Positions 5,336 through 9,136 of a stretch of 9,136 nucleotides of DNA are shown here, one piece after another. Where the stretch lies: positions 1 to 9,136 of the forward strand of contig JAKANW010000072.1 of assembly GCA_021823555.1 (NCBI GenBank), written 5' to 3'. Position numbers and translations under genes: made by a program. This stretch comes from Chloroflexota bacterium (lineage in GTDB: Bacteria; Chloroflexota; Anaerolineae; Anaerolineales; Villigracilaceae). Numbering within the stretch: position 1 is the stretch's first letter; every line of letters begins with the position of its first letter. The notes beneath the pieces are model-generated. The model saw only the letters and a program-made list of their open reading frames with translations, had not been told where the DNA came from and searched no databases.

Positions 5336-5343
5336 GATTCGGC

Positions 5344-5402
5344 GGAGTCGAAAGCTCTGCTTCCGATGCGGTTGGAAAATTCCGAAGCAGAGCTTCGGAG
5401 TC
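5344..5402. repeat. Palindromic repeat between the convergent transcription units
   Basis: Two small hairpin units lie in inverted orientation. AAGCTCTGCTTC (5352-5363) is a perfect 12-base inverted match to GAAGCAGAGCTT (5384-5395), and each arm is bordered on its outer side by GGAGTC. The right unit is itself a near-perfect hairpin, TCCGAAGC-AGA-GCTTCGGA; the left unit is the same with one mismatch. It has the look of a REP-type intergenic repeat. Its genome-wide copy number cannot be seen here. Confidence 0.6.
5376..5399 (-). terminator. Probable terminator of the dms-type operon
   Basis: Read on the minus strand, TCCGAAGC-TCT-GCTTCGGA is a perfect 8-bp stem with a 3-base loop, followed by A and TTTT (5379-5376). 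It begins about 9 bases after the stop codon of the membrane-anchor gene. The T-tract is short, so termination may be partial. It is the right half of the palindromic repeat at 5344-5402. Confidence 0.62.
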
Positions 5403-5407
5403 CGGGA

Positions 5408-6832
5408 TCAGGGACGCATCTCGTAGAACAGCCACCTGCCCAGGGCTTCTTCGGCCAGGACAATCCCAAAGGCGAGGGGACTCGTCCATAACGGGACCAG
5501 CTCCGGAATCAGAAAGGAGGCGGTTCCGATCATCCCCATCAGCGACAGTCCAAGGCGCAATCTTCCGGCTGTAGGGTGAGAAGTGCTCCAGTTTGATATC
5601 ACCAGTTGCATGGCGAGAAGCGTCAGCGTACTCCAGCCGATAAATTGCCATTGACCGAATGACAATTGGGAACCTGCCAGATACGCATCAATAGCTAATA
5701 TGCAAGACATAATGAGTTGTCCAAGCAACAGGCTGCTAACCATGAATCCGACTTCCGTCCGCCAGGTATTCCAGGCGGGTACAGATCTCAATCGGTATAC
5801 CTGGGACATGGCATGGATCAATCCCAAACCAAGCAAATCAACGAACAACGTGATAAGCAAACTTTCGATACCTGCTACTTGTAAAATAAACCACACTGCC
5901 CAACCGGTTCCAAATAACCCAGCCCACAGAAGTTCTCGGCTCAGCCATGATTTTTTCAAATTCCTAAGCACCAATATGGCATTGCGCTTTCTTCCAAGGT
6001 GAGTAAAGGCTGCCAACATCCCCACGCCAAGGCAAGCACCTGCCAGCAGGCTTGGAAGCAGGCGCAGGAGTGTGAAGTTATGTTCCACTGGCCTCCACAG
6101 CGGACCAATCAGCCACTGCATGGACCAGAATGCGCCGACAGCCATTTGAATGAGGAGGGTAAAAGCAACCAATGGAAGTTCGCTTTTGGGCTTCGCCGGC
6201 CTGATCTCTTCCCAGTTTGAAACCACTTTCTCCAGCGTATTCAACATTCCCGCATGGGGTTCGATAGCCAGGTGCGGCTCCGTGCGCGAATAGTTCGGCA
6301 AGGGGAAGGGATGTTCACTGGCGGGCACTGACCAGAGTAGTCTTTTGCCGCCTACAGCCTGCTGCCCATCATCCACTACAATAAAGTCGAGTACCCGCAG
6401 CGGACAAGCTGCCACACAGGCGGGCAGCAGACCCGCGTCAATGTTATCGAAGCAGAAATTGCACTTGGTCATTTGACCCAGATCGGGATCGTACTGCGGC
6501 ACGGCGTAGGGACAGGCCCAAGCGCAATATCCACAGCCCATGCACTTGGATTCGTCAATGTAGACAATTCCATCCGGGCGGACCACATACGCGTCGGTGG
6601 GACACACGCCTGCGCATTTGGGATGGACGCAGTGATTGCAAGCTAGCGAAAGGTTGTAAGCAAAGACCGTGTTGGTCCAGGCTTCACCCTTCCGCTGCCA
6701 GTCCCCGCCGGTGACCTCGTATACGCGCCGCCACAGAACCCCCACCGGCAGGTTGTTCTTATCCTTGCAGGCGGCCTGGCAAGCCTTGCAGCCCGAACAA
6801 GCGGAAGCATCGAAGGTGAAAGCGTAGGTCAT
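5408..6832 (-). CDS. Fused DmsB-DmsC-like protein: four [4Fe-4S] electron-transfer subunit plus eight-helix membrane anchor
   Basis: A 474-aa fusion of the two accessory subunits of a DMSO-reductase-type enzyme. Residues 1 to about 170 are DmsB-like, starting MTYAFTFDASACSGCKAC. Sixteen cysteines form four cluster motifs: 12/15/18/22, 65/68/73/77, 97/100/103/107 and 124/127/139/143, the last with the C-x2-C-x11-C-x3-C-P spacing of DmsB. A linker (about 170-217) leads to eight hydrophobic segments near 219-243, 256-278, 299-320, 322-345, 361-386, 396-414, 427-447 and 450-471. HLGR (278-281) and SWLSRE (295-300) after helix 2 are DmsC signatures. It should take electrons from membrane quinol and pass them through the clusters to the catalytic subunit. 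E. coli has two separate genes totalling about 490 aa. The ATG at 6832 is chosen because GGAGAAG precedes it and the product begins like DmsB; a GTG at 6853 would add seven residues. It lies 20 bp after dmsA in the same operon. No DmsD/TorD chaperone gene follows. Confidence 0.92.
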   Translation of the reverse strand: MTYAFTFDASACSGCKACQAACKDKNNLPVGVLWRRVYEVTGGDWQRKGEAWTNTVFAYNLSLACNHCVHPKCAGVCPTDAYVVRPDGIVYIDESKCMGCGYCAWACPYAVPQYDPDLGQMTKCNFCFDNIDAGLLPACVAACPLRVLDFIVVDDGQQAVGGKRLLWSVPASEHPFPLPNYSRTEPHLAIEPHAGMLNTLEKVVSNWEEIRPAKPKSELPLVAFTLLIQMAVGAFWSMQWLIGPLWRPVEHNFTLLRLLPSLLAGACLGVGMLAAFTHLGRKRNAILVLRNLKKSWLSRELLWAGLFGTGWAVWFILQVAGIESLLITLFVDLLGLGLIHAMSQVYRLRSVPAWNTWRTEVGFMVSSLLLGQLIMSCILAIDAYLAGSQLSFGQWQFIGWSTLTLLAMQLVISNWSTSHPTAGRLRLGLSLMGMIGTASFLIPELVPLWTSPLAFGIVLAEEALGRWLFYEMRP

Positions 6833-6835
6833 TTT

Positions 6836-6842
6836 CTTCTCC
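6836..6842 (-). promoter_or_regulatory. Ribosome-binding site deciding the DmsBC start
   Basis: The minus strand reads GGAGAAG then AAA before the ATG at 6832, placing GGAG six bases upstream. This favours ATG 6832 over GTG 6853, whose G overlaps the upstream TAG. The first two bases of GGAG belong to the end of the palindromic element at 6841-6910, so the repeat helps form this site. Confidence 0.75.
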
Positions 6843-6910
6843 ACGAAGGACACTAAGGAACACGAAAAGGTTTTAGGGCTTTTCTTAGTGCCCCTTCGTA
6901 CCCTTTGTGG
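6841..6910. repeat. Imperfect palindromic element at the dmsA/dmsBC junction
   Basis: The left arm is made of three similar units, CCACGAAGG, ACACTAAGG and AACACGAAAAGG (6841-6870). The right arm carries three units of the complementary kind, CTTAGTG-CC, CCTTCGTAC and CCTTTGTGG (6884-6910). CCACGAAGG pairs with CCTTTGTGG with one G.T; the inner units pair with mismatches. The centre is 6871-6883. Read on the minus strand, it encodes the last ~19 residues of the DmsA-like protein and its stop, and ends in the ribosome-binding site of the next gene. This type of CACGAAGG-rich palindrome resembles repeats I recall from environmental bacterial genomes; copy number needs a genome search. Confidence 0.65.
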
Positions 6911-9136
6911 ATGACTTTCTCAACCTGGACCATGAACGTGTGTTGCGCTGACCCAAAGGCAAATGGCGTCCACCTGGATGATGTGAGCACATTGACGTTG
7001 CCGCCGTAGTCCACGCCATCCTTGGCGGGATGCCACCAAGCGCCCTGCGGGATGTCCACCACGCCGGGCATGATGCGCGGGGTGACGCGGCAGGGCAGGA
7101 CGAGCGCTCCACGCGCATTGTAGACTTTGATTCTGTCGCCGTCTTTAATTCCACGCGCCGCCGCGTCAATGGGATTGATGAACACGCGCTGGGGGAAAGC
7201 CTCCTCCAGCCAATCGTTGTTGTCGTGCGTGGAGTGGACGCGGTGCAAGGTATGGTGGCCGATGGCTTGCAGGGGATATTTAGCGATGTCGTTGCGAGAC
7301 GCCGCAGGCGGCGAAGCAATCTCCTCGGGCATAGACAAATCCCGTTTAACGGGAGATTGCTTCGAGCTATCGCCCTCGCAATGACATAGAGCAAATGGAC
7401 TCTCCCATTCTTGAATATATTTTGGGATGGCAGGGATTTCGGCGGGATTGTTCAAGTCAAACAATTGCTTCGAGAAAATTTCAATCTTTCCCGATGGAGT
7501 CTTGAGCGGATACTTCTCAGGGTCGGCGCGGAAGTCTGCAAAGGCGATGGCGGGTTTGCGCGCAGGACGTGTCCACGCGCCGAGATTCTGTTCAAGGAAT
7601 TCATCCAGCGTAGGCAATTCAGGGAAACGCAGGCGGCGGAATTCACCCAGACAAAAATCCACCCAGGCTTTTTCATCGCGGCCCTCGATGAAGGCCTCGC
7701 CGATGTCGAGGCGTTCCGCCAGTTCCGCGCAGATACGGTAATCGGACTTGCACTCGCCCGGTGGTTCGACCAATTTGGGCTGGAGAATGACTTCGTCGCC
7801 GTATTTCCAGCCATCCTCCACGCCCCAGGTTTCAAACTGCGTGCAGGCGGGTAGGACAATATCGGCAAAGCGGGCCGTGGGCGTCAGGAAGTTATCCTGC
7901 ACGACAATGAATTCCACTTTCGATTCGTCGCGCAGAATCTTGGCGGTGCGATTGGTATCGGCATGCTGATTGATCAGGCAGTTCGTCGCCACGGCGTAGA
8001 TCAGCTTGATGTCGTTGTCGAGCCGCTTGACGCCGCGAATGCCGTCAGCGGAGGTCATGCTTTTTCCACGGAGGCAGGCCTCGGTCCAGAGAAAGACCGG
8101 GATCTCCGCTTTAATGGGATTTTCCCCGGTCGGGAAAACAGTCCACAGCCCGCCGCCGTCCGGGGCTTGTAATCCCAATCCACTGGCCCAGCCGCCCGGG
8201 ACGCCCACGTTGCCAGTGATGGCGGCCAGCACACATCCAGCCCGCACCACCTGCTCGCCATAGGCGCGGCGCTGCATCCCATAGCCTTGATACAAAACCG
8301 ACGGCTTGAGACTGGCATACTCGCGGGCGATGCGTGCAATGGTTTCGGCAGGCACGGCAGTGATCGCCTCGGCCCATTGCGGCGTCTTAGGAATGCCGTC
8401 CCGTTTCCCCAGAATGTAATCGCTGTAACTTTCCGCGCCATCCACAGGCATCTGCTCGGAGTCGAAGCCAACGCAATGCGTGCGGACAAATTCGGCGTCG
8501 TAAAGATTTTCGGCGAGCATCACGTAAGCCATGGCGCTCATCATGGCCGCATCGGTGCCGGGGCGGATGGGAATCCACTCGTCAGCCAGCGAGGCCGCGC
8601 TCAGCGAGTGACGCGGATCAATGCACATCACGCGCGCCCCAGCCTCGTGCGCCAGTTTGATGAAGTAATCGCTGTTGGTGCCGTCGCGCATCTCGGCCGG
8701 GTTCCAGCCCCACATCAAAATATATTTTGCGTTCAGCCAGTCCTGCCTCTGATTGCCGGTCACGAGCGTGCCATACACCGTGGGCGTCGCCAGGTTGGTG
8801 GCCGCCCACGAATACGAGTTGTAAATGCCGAGACAGCCGCCATATAAATTCATTAGGCGGCGGGCGACGTGCGAGCCGTTGAGCTGGTTGTAGGAGCCCG
8901 TGCCGTAGGGGACGAACAAGGCGGAGGGGCCGTACTGGCGCTTGACGCGCTTGATCTGAGCGGCGACCGTGTCGAGCGCCTGCTCCCACGAAATGGGACG
9001 GAACTCCCCGCCCCCGCGCCTGCCCACCCGTTTAAGCGGAGTCAGCAACCTGTCGGGGTGATACTGGCGGCGCAAATAGGAACGCCCGCGCACGCAGGCG
9101 CGTAACCGCGGCGCAGCGACTGAATCCGGGCGGTCA
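6853..9136 (-). CDS. dmsA: DmsA-like molybdopterin (bis-MGD) oxidoreductase catalytic subunit, N-terminus outside window
   Basis: The catalytic subunit of a DMSO-reductase-type enzyme, about 760 residues visible. The frame is open to the window edge and reads ACVRGRSYLRRQYHPDR, so Cys at 9096-9094 should be the last ligand of the N-terminal [4Fe-4S] cluster. The GTG at 9093 is not a real start. Along the chain are PLKRVGRRGGGEF, NSYSWAAT (the second Ser, codon 8811-8809, matches the serine Mo ligand of DmsA), DEWIPIRPGTDAA, TGNVGVPGG, NCLINQHADTNRT, RFADIVLP, LKTPSGKIEIFS and the C-terminal cofactor domain from KYPLQ through RVHSTH, DAAARGIKDGD, RITPRIMPGVV-like and NVLTSSR. These match E. 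coli DmsA closely, so an S- or N-oxide reductase is likely, though related selenate or other oxyanion reductases cannot be excluded. A Tat signal would be upstream, unseen. Oddities: about 36 extra residues before KYPLQ from an embedded palindrome, and an extra ~19-residue C-terminus from another. Confidence 0.9.
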   Translation of the reverse strand, partial: DRPDSVAAPRLRACVRGRSYLRRQYHPDRLLTPLKRVGRRGGGEFRPISWEQALDTVAAQIKRVKRQYGPSALFVPYGTGSYNQLNGSHVARRLMNLYGGCLGIYNSYSWAATNLATPTVYGTLVTGNQRQDWLNAKYILMWGWNPAEMRDGTNSDYFIKLAHEAGARVMCIDPRHSLSAASLADEWIPIRPGTDAAMMSAMAYVMLAENLYDAEFVRTHCVGFDSEQMPVDGAESYSDYILGKRDGIPKTPQWAEAITAVPAETIARIAREYASLKPSVLYQGYGMQRRAYGEQVVRAGCVLAAITGNVGVPGGWASGLGLQAPDGGGLWTVFPTGENPIKAEIPVFLWTEACLRGKSMTSADGIRGVKRLDNDIKLIYAVATNCLINQHADTNRTAKILRDESKVEFIVVQDNFLTPTARFADIVLPACTQFETWGVEDGWKYGDEVILQPKLVEPPGECKSDYRICAELAERLDIGEAFIEGRDEKAWVDFCLGEFRRLRFPELPTLDEFLEQNLGAWTRPARKPAIAFADFRADPEKYPLKTPSGKIEIFSKQLFDLNNPAEIPAIPKYIQEWESPFALCHCEGDSSKQSPVKRDLSMPEEIASPPAASRNDIAKYPLQAIGHHTLHRVHSTHDNNDWLEEAFPQRVFINPIDAAARGIKDGDRIKVYNARGALVLPCRVTPRIMPGVVDIPQGAWWHPAKDGVDYGGNVNVLTSSRWTPFAFGSAQHTFMVQVEKVIHKGYEGALRKALKPFRVP
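7287..7386. repeat. 100-bp palindromic repeat embedded in frame in dmsA
   Basis: The left arm starts TGTCGTTGCGAG (7287) and reaches CGAAGCAATCTCC (7312-7324); the right arm reads GGAGATTGCTTCG (7352-7364) and ends CTCGCAATGACA (7375-7386). The outer ends pair with one mismatch over 12 bases and the inner 13-base blocks pair exactly, separated by non-pairing GC-rich bases. The centre contains a small palindrome CCCGTTTAACGGG (7341-7353). The arm sequence, with TCATTGCGAG and GAAGCAATCTC, matches a palindromic repeat type I recall from intergenic DNA of many environmental bacteria. Here it lies entirely inside coding sequence, keeps the frame open and encodes CHCEGDSSKQSP through AASRND. Confidence 0.85.

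Follow-up and report, generated by a model that had tools for sequence, protein, structure and literature searches.

Small palindromic repeats that are read in frame are already known from several systems, among them RPE-4 and RPE-6 of Rickettsia and the CGTC and GTAG REPs. The CGTC REPs are defined by a terminal CGTC tag (TGTC and CCTC variants are allowed), a stem of 8–9 bp with A/T pairs at the first and second positions, a loop of 4–5 nt, and an unpaired tail that is mostly CCA (Di Nocera et al. 2013, PMC3733652). The available text of that paper describes these repeats as high in copy number, mostly intergenic, mostly arranged as head-to-head dimers, and without an adjacent transposase. 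It also places them in frame in some genes, where over half of the inserts encode 20–30 residues, and in recB of two Xanthomonas species the repeats lie at about one site (PMC3733652). RPE-1 of Rickettsia consists of in-frame palindromes in proteins, the repeat identity of which fades with time (PMC6649704, PMC3733652). RPE-4, RPE-6, and RPE-7 are coding palindromes with a frequent ATGAC motif that are solvent-exposed, and different RPE groups occur near one place in orthologues; in the accessible part of that account the choice between a hotspot and a common origin is left open, with the authors leaning toward one common inserted sequence (PMC3767692). Inverted repeats also lie within coding sequence in Nematomorpha mitochondria, where the available text suggests active maintenance of perfect repeats (PMC6649704). 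Finally, the QMITE of Coxiella burnetii are short inverted-repeat elements that are sometimes found in frame in the middle of an ORF, while the annotated functional genes in the source text carry them at the 3' end (PMC5896051).

The window considered here, that is, the whole stretch of DNA that was analyzed (9,136 nucleotides), contains a palindrome of this kind within a dmsA-like gene (Table 1). Judged by its sequence, the product is a DmsA-type molybdoenzyme, as it scores 803.2 bits against TIGR02166 (dmsA_ynfE; cut-off 777.7) and its AlphaFold model resembles DMSO reductases in a search of the PDB. The dmsB-like product scores 205.7 bits against TIGR02951, slightly below the cut-off of 214.1. 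The linker between the WE and YPLQ motifs comprises 41 residues in the window protein and its insert peptide includes DLSMPEEIASPPAASR. In a phmmer comparison with Rhodobacter sphaeroides DMSO reductase (1eu1), the unmatched query residues 576–617 face chain residues 624–632, a stretch of nine residues. The first-pass annotation had placed the insert just before the C-terminal cofactor-binding domain and proposed structure predictions with and without it; PF01568 begins shortly after the insert, and residues 575–615 have pLDDT values under 50 in the AlphaFold model. The mean pLDDT is 77.3 with an alignment of 39 sequences (36.8 with 33 close homologues), further stretches of low pLDDT are located at residues 628–647, residues 723–731, and the C-terminus, and the insert is predicted from the model to be disordered.

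Table 1. Positions of the dmsA-like gene, its domains, and the palindromic element in the window.
Feature	Position	Strand	Basis
dmsA-like gene (molybdopterin oxidoreductase, catalytic subunit), 760 codons in window, 5' end beyond window	6853..9135	-	open frame, PF00384 + PF01568, TIGR02166, PDB fold search
Molybdopterin oxidoreductase domain PF00384	7711..9051	-	profile match, residues 29-475
Variable 41-codon linker (SPF...IAK), between WE and YPLQ motifs	7279..7401	-	homologue comparison, pLDDT
Palindrome made of two oppositely oriented CGTC-like REP units, tags at outer ends	7286..7387	.	arms, fold, matches in related genomes
REP unit 1, GTCATTGCGAG...GAAGCAATC, T before unit (TGTC tag)	7355..7385	-	sequence
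33-nt spacer separating REP units 1 and 2	7322..7354	.	sequence
REP unit 2, GTCGTTGCGAG...GAAGCAATC, T before unit (TGTC tag)	7288..7321	+	sequence
C-terminal molybdopterin dinucleotide binding domain PF01568, starts shortly after insert	6937..7269	-	profile match, residues 623-733
dmsB-like iron-sulfur subunit fused to DmsC-like membrane anchor	5408..6853	-	PF13247 + PF04976; TIGR02951

The inverted repeat that had been reported at this position, together with a reading frame that passes through it, is real. The outer arms (7286–7298/7375–7387; 13 nt) are 92% complementary and the inner arms (7312–7324/7352–7364; 13 nt) are 100% complementary, the mRNA strand of 7392–7282 folds with -49.6 kcal/mol (z = -4.07; 0 of 200 dinucleotide shuffles were equally good), and the minus-strand frame 6853–9135 is stop-free across the palindrome. 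The two units form a dimer with tags facing outward, and TGTC, one of the allowed tag variants (PMC3733652), constitutes both outer ends of the element (7287–7290 and 7383–7386). The stem is ATTGC/GCAAT (GTTGC in unit 2), an outer stem of 5 bp followed by mismatches and a variable inner stem, whereas CGTC REPs as described have a stem of 8–9 bp and a loop of 4–5 nt; moreover, two A/T pairs come first in unit 1 only, and the tail after GCAAT is CTCC rather than CCA. Since stem and tail depart from the published CGTC families, the window unit is named "CGTC-like".

The element was also described as a mobile-type repeat of an intergenic kind, and the search for other copies bears this out. Of 18 related Chloroflexota MAG genomes, 14 contain matches to it, G002 having 42; match counts for this element, for the repeat at 6836–6915, and for the insert queries B, C, and D given below include the query's own place where it is present and, for palindromes, both strands, and are lower bounds where only the best 40 candidates were scored. 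The CGTC pattern is present in 13 of 15 host genomes in up to 139 units, and the reversed control pattern gives 0 matches. A codon-model test called 4 of 114 classifiable CGTC sites elsewhere intragenic, plus one at an edge (0/55 in G007 and 4/59 in five other genomes), where the census covers the listed sites of G007 and the fetched part only of G003, G006, G010, G012, and G014. The copies are therefore many, interspersed, and mostly intergenic, as in CGTC REPs. The same test called 30 of 34 dmsA inserts, or 19 of 21 when duplicate loci are removed, and missed L005 and L011.

Other repeats lie near this gene. A second multi-copy inverted repeat (6836–6915) covers both the 3' end of dmsA and the start of dmsB, where it would encode the last DmsA residues and the first DmsB residues; it is matched in 12 of 18 related genomes, with one match on the dmsA contig of G193, near the dmsA gene of that genome. 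A palindrome of type F (see below) is located at the dmsA 3' end in L014 (12227–12254) and L015 (12224–12251), indicating that the dmsA 3' end too carries different repeats by host. Additionally, a palindrome with 24-nt arms (83%) is found at 5343–5404, between the dmsBC 3' end and a tRNA-Met gene.

The linker was compared across 120 listed proteins among 7,831 homologues, the best 80 of 238 genome loci, and further loci from a search of 400 genomes of the order, of which 34 matched. Once 18 duplicate loci were removed, 210 rows were available (120 proteins and 90 loci, window included), 206 of them in the tree; L108, L114, and L117 (no linker found), L115, L116, and L118 (distant paralogues), and L113 (too short) were left out. 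The linker is 14–63 residues long in 131 of the 210 rows, with a median of 35, and 120 of the 131 inserts are distinct. The rows are not all independent, since seven proteins share an identical insert with one of the genome loci. Every insert row of the tree falls in one clade of 144 rows, 130 of which have 14–63 residues (110 of the 120 proteins in the clade and 20 of its 24 genome loci, among which the window is counted). Of the 62 tree rows outside this clade, 60 have a linker of exactly 9 residues and two have linkers of 5 and 13, against 41 in the window protein. Furthermore, among 121 aligned rows no internal site other than the dmsA linker recurrently has insertions of at least 8 residues; one other row has an insertion after residue 5, and N-terminal differences stem from the window cut-off.

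The alignment of relatives proposed in the first-pass annotation thus shows a variable site (14–63 residues versus 9), but no close empty site was found: the best-scoring relative, P0001 (91% identical), carries a homologous insert, and in P0007, the row closest in tree path, the linker is of a different kind and has 21 residues. Neither the exact 108-bp (36-codon) insert nor the 3-bp duplication is supported: no target-site duplication was found in six class-A loci, where the longest word common to the two 12-nt edges averages 3.7 nt versus 3.2 nt for mismatched locus pairs.

The persistence of long linkers raises the question of selection. According to this explanation, a long, polar, disordered stretch ahead of the cofactor domain benefits the clade through maturation, contact with a partner, or flexibility, and the repeats are simply the nearest sequence supply. 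The 14–63 residues kept in most of the clade and the median of 35 would fit, as would the disorder-prone composition of the inserts (63% AEGKPQRS versus 50% in the rest of the protein) and the unclassified inserts, probably old, which are still long (14–48 residues; 16 of 18 with at least 24). However, 14 of the 144 clade rows have linkers of 13 residues or fewer, neither sequence nor length is conserved among the inserts, and rows outside the clade manage with 9 residues. Selection for length is considered unlikely.

The inserts themselves are of several kinds. By DNA, type A (the CGTC-like repeat) is found at the dmsA linker of the window, L006, L007, L011, L030, and L089; type B (accacagagacacagag type; cacagag) in L010, L013, and L016; type C (acacggattacacgg type; cacggatta) in L015, L022, and L113; type D (ggctgagcg..gtcgaag type) in L002 and L019 and, degenerate, in L001; type E (ggtcgagtag..tatcgagacc) in L014; and type F (gtaggggcg type) in L012. 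A cac(a/g)ga motif is common to types B and C, which may belong to a single family, so the number of distinct types is at least five (A, B/C, D, E, F). At the dmsA linker of L006 and L089, the CGTC unit contains a nested E-type palindrome. The dmsA linkers of L011 and L104 (58 and 60 residues) contain three CGTC-like units in series.

Every one of these types is also present away from dmsA. With the own insert counted, queries of D, B, and C match 13, 11, and 12 of 19 genomes, respectively. Type C gives 21 matches in G014 and 22 in G288, both its own hosts (both strands counted), and B of L013 gives 15 in G010 and 27 in G012, counts that cover both strands and include the own inserts, while B of L010 has just two short matches in G007 besides its own insert. 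For D, the host G002 has a second, near full-length match that is 76% identical and G009 an 81% match, and the sole match of D of L019 in G013 is its own dmsA insert. Among 299 fetched loci, the E pattern occurs away from the linker in L175, L252, and L264, as does the F pattern in L014, L015, L017, and L162. When the insert peptides were compared in six frames with 1.13 Mb of DNA, with dmsA sites masked, 36 of 130 matched at E<=1e-3 versus 2 of 650 shuffles, the comparison DNA being enriched in repeat sites through the way of fetching.

Peptide motifs divide the 131 inserts into classes A (44), B (29), D (20), C (12), G (5), E (2), and F (1), with 18 unclassified; for the 120 proteins the motifs were picked by eye and DNA was not used, and L004 is in class C by peptide motif alone. 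The tree requires at least 43 class changes for 112 classified rows, versus 50–65 (mean 59) in 500 label shuffles, suggesting that the classes are partly inherited yet fast-changing; these counts are rough since 68 of 201 forks of the FastTree tree are open. For 17 genome loci (window included; L004 by peptide only) at least 10 changes are required, and the five-row neighborhood of the window contains A, A, B, G, and one unclassified insert. The palindrome does appear to have been inserted in frame, as the first-pass annotation held, but its reading as a single event is too narrow for relatives that carry several unrelated types with fast turnover. Most sources are metagenome assemblies, in which repeats can be misjoined, and an assembly artefact or a pseudogene might be suspected. 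This is extremely improbable given the number of distinct inserts, the conserved frame, the family score above the cut-off, and the presence of inserts on contigs of 972,229 bases (P0029), 592,612 bases (L015), and 446,018 bases (L010).

Hairpin strength was assessed for the 21 inserts with DNA. The fold z is -3.4 or lower in 14 of these, and 84 flank segments have a mean of -0.26 (sd 1.30), three of them being strong (-4.7, -4.3, -3.2). The other seven inserts (L001, L002, L003, L004, L005, L019, and L102) have no unusual fold and their frames are all open, suggesting that the hairpin is not what is kept; the hairpin was accordingly rejected as a generally conserved feature. Because L002 and L019 are still recognizable D repeats, a missing fold is not always decay. 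The strong folds, located at a domain boundary (the PF01568 start), could be taken to mean that an mRNA hairpin pauses translation between domains and aids cofactor insertion. Such a role at the RNA level is very improbable, as the genes of the seven inserts remain open without it.

Intragenic repeats outside dmsA are few. The four cases in the census are PyrD of G006, two proteins with weak, sub-cut-off glycosyltransferase matches, and one protein without a family. PyrD of G006 scores 414.8 bits in NCBIfam with the insert included, and in L253 (G006) and L283 (G009) CGTC dimers lie in the same loop and the same frame (MSLR...RNDT). Among 19 PyrD rows from 18 insert-bearing genomes, these two are accompanied by two others that are repeat-like by eye; a wider set of 30 rows contains three that are repeat-like by eye, two of them also in the 19-row set, the divergence of the PyrD rows not being matched to that of dmsA. 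The PyrD loop is a weaker second landing site, which suggests that such sites are not unique to dmsA. Further on in the PyrD of L253 is a second repeat-like insert, LPSPSRRGAGGEVRG. A large protein in L213 (576–2999), with no NCBIfam match and, by our reading, trypsin-like and ATPase-like, has several in-frame repeat-like stretches besides its CGTC unit.

Y1 transposases are present in 15 of 15 host genomes, with 50 matches listed. At eight of these Y1 transposase loci, of 2.4–3.4 kb, no CGTC unit was found beside the gene, in agreement with what the available text of PMC3733652 states for CGTC repeats. A REP-rich genome was rejected as a sufficient cause. The 9-residue linker is kept in G405 (60 units) and G246 (32 units, many in tandem arrays), so repeat load alone is no explanation.

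The untouched short linkers of such REP-rich genomes could instead reflect site-directed insertion, whereby a transposase prefers a DNA target or structure present at this site, whatever the protein tolerates. Several unrelated repeat types at one site, and E nested in A, are in keeping with this idea. Against it, no common target duplication was found in the six class-A loci, unrelated repeats would probably need unrelated enzymes of like preference, and PyrD, which is different in sequence, also takes repeats. Directed insertion therefore appears quite unlikely.

The evidence establishes a multi-copy repeat, read in frame, in an interdomain linker that is predicted to be disordered and that holds unrelated repeats in other members of the clade. 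Most probably, a dimer of CGTC-like REP units inserted itself in frame into a DmsA-type linker that the enzyme can do without, a linker that has been repeatedly colonized, tolerated, and replaced. We infer mobility in trans, tolerance as the cause, and overwriting. Small palindromic repeats would keep inserting genome-wide via a putative transposase acting in trans, with coding insertions being mostly purged. At the dmsA linker, insertions that keep the frame would be tolerated and would then diverge, be deleted or overwritten, and be replaced. The linker probably lost its constraint with an early insert, and repeats may also insert into repeats; in this way the site is proposed to have become a standing landing place. 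As relatives have different, unrelated repeats at the same spot, the linker seems to convert non-coding DNA to protein repeatedly. A stronger version, offered tentatively and as doubtful, is that in this Anaerolineae-type clade several unrelated families of small palindromic repeats land at the dmsA linker in succession, each being made into protein and displacing the one before. If true, non-coding mobile DNA would here supply a site that naturally diversifies a protein and that is kept by targeting or long-linker selection and not by tolerance alone. The dmsA linker provides 120 distinct natural alleles of one site, which make it possible to count how coding repeats are inserted, diverge, and are lost, and to test what a foreign segment of 30–60 residues costs in a known enzyme fold.

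How does this locus compare with the known systems? Searches of the open PMC library, with subscription papers outside the scope, turned up no title or abstract opening that describes the dmsA linker or several repeat families at one coding site. A coding palindrome in this enzyme family, put forward in the first-pass annotation as a new case, is upheld, but the element alone is not new, as the available texts describe coding CGTC repeats outside this enzyme (PMC3733652; PMC3767692); what is new is one linker repeatedly rewritten by unrelated repeats. The window element shares with the CGTC REPs, as far as their published description is accessible, a palindromic unit that has a GTC tag and begins with A/T pairs, an arrangement as dimers, a high copy number, a mostly intergenic location, and some copies in frame, and it differs in that many MAGs and several unrelated repeat types at one enzyme site are involved (PMC3733652). 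The QMITE are likewise short inverted-repeat elements that are sometimes in frame, and the accessible part of their description reports no recurrent internal site. In contrast to the Nematomorpha palindromes in the available account, several inserts here have no hairpin, whether lost or never strong. Like RPE-1 in its accessible descriptions, the palindromes here lie in frame in proteins and lose repeat identity. RPE-1 (Ogata and colleagues, 2000) reportedly occurs as palindromes in many genes, whereas here many repeat types occur in one gene. The likeness to Rickettsia drawn in the first-pass annotation is sound: in both RPE-4/-6, as described in the available text, and the window element a palindrome lies in frame in a conserved gene, and the window segment is predicted to be disordered. 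Unlike in the available account of RPE-4/-6/-7, the insert types here are unrelated and also present elsewhere in their hosts, which favors repeated insertion. Consequently, on the question raised for Rickettsia of a hotspot or a single diverged insert at one orthologue site (PMC3767692, in its accessible part), unrelated repeats at one linker across a large clade argue for repeated insertion.
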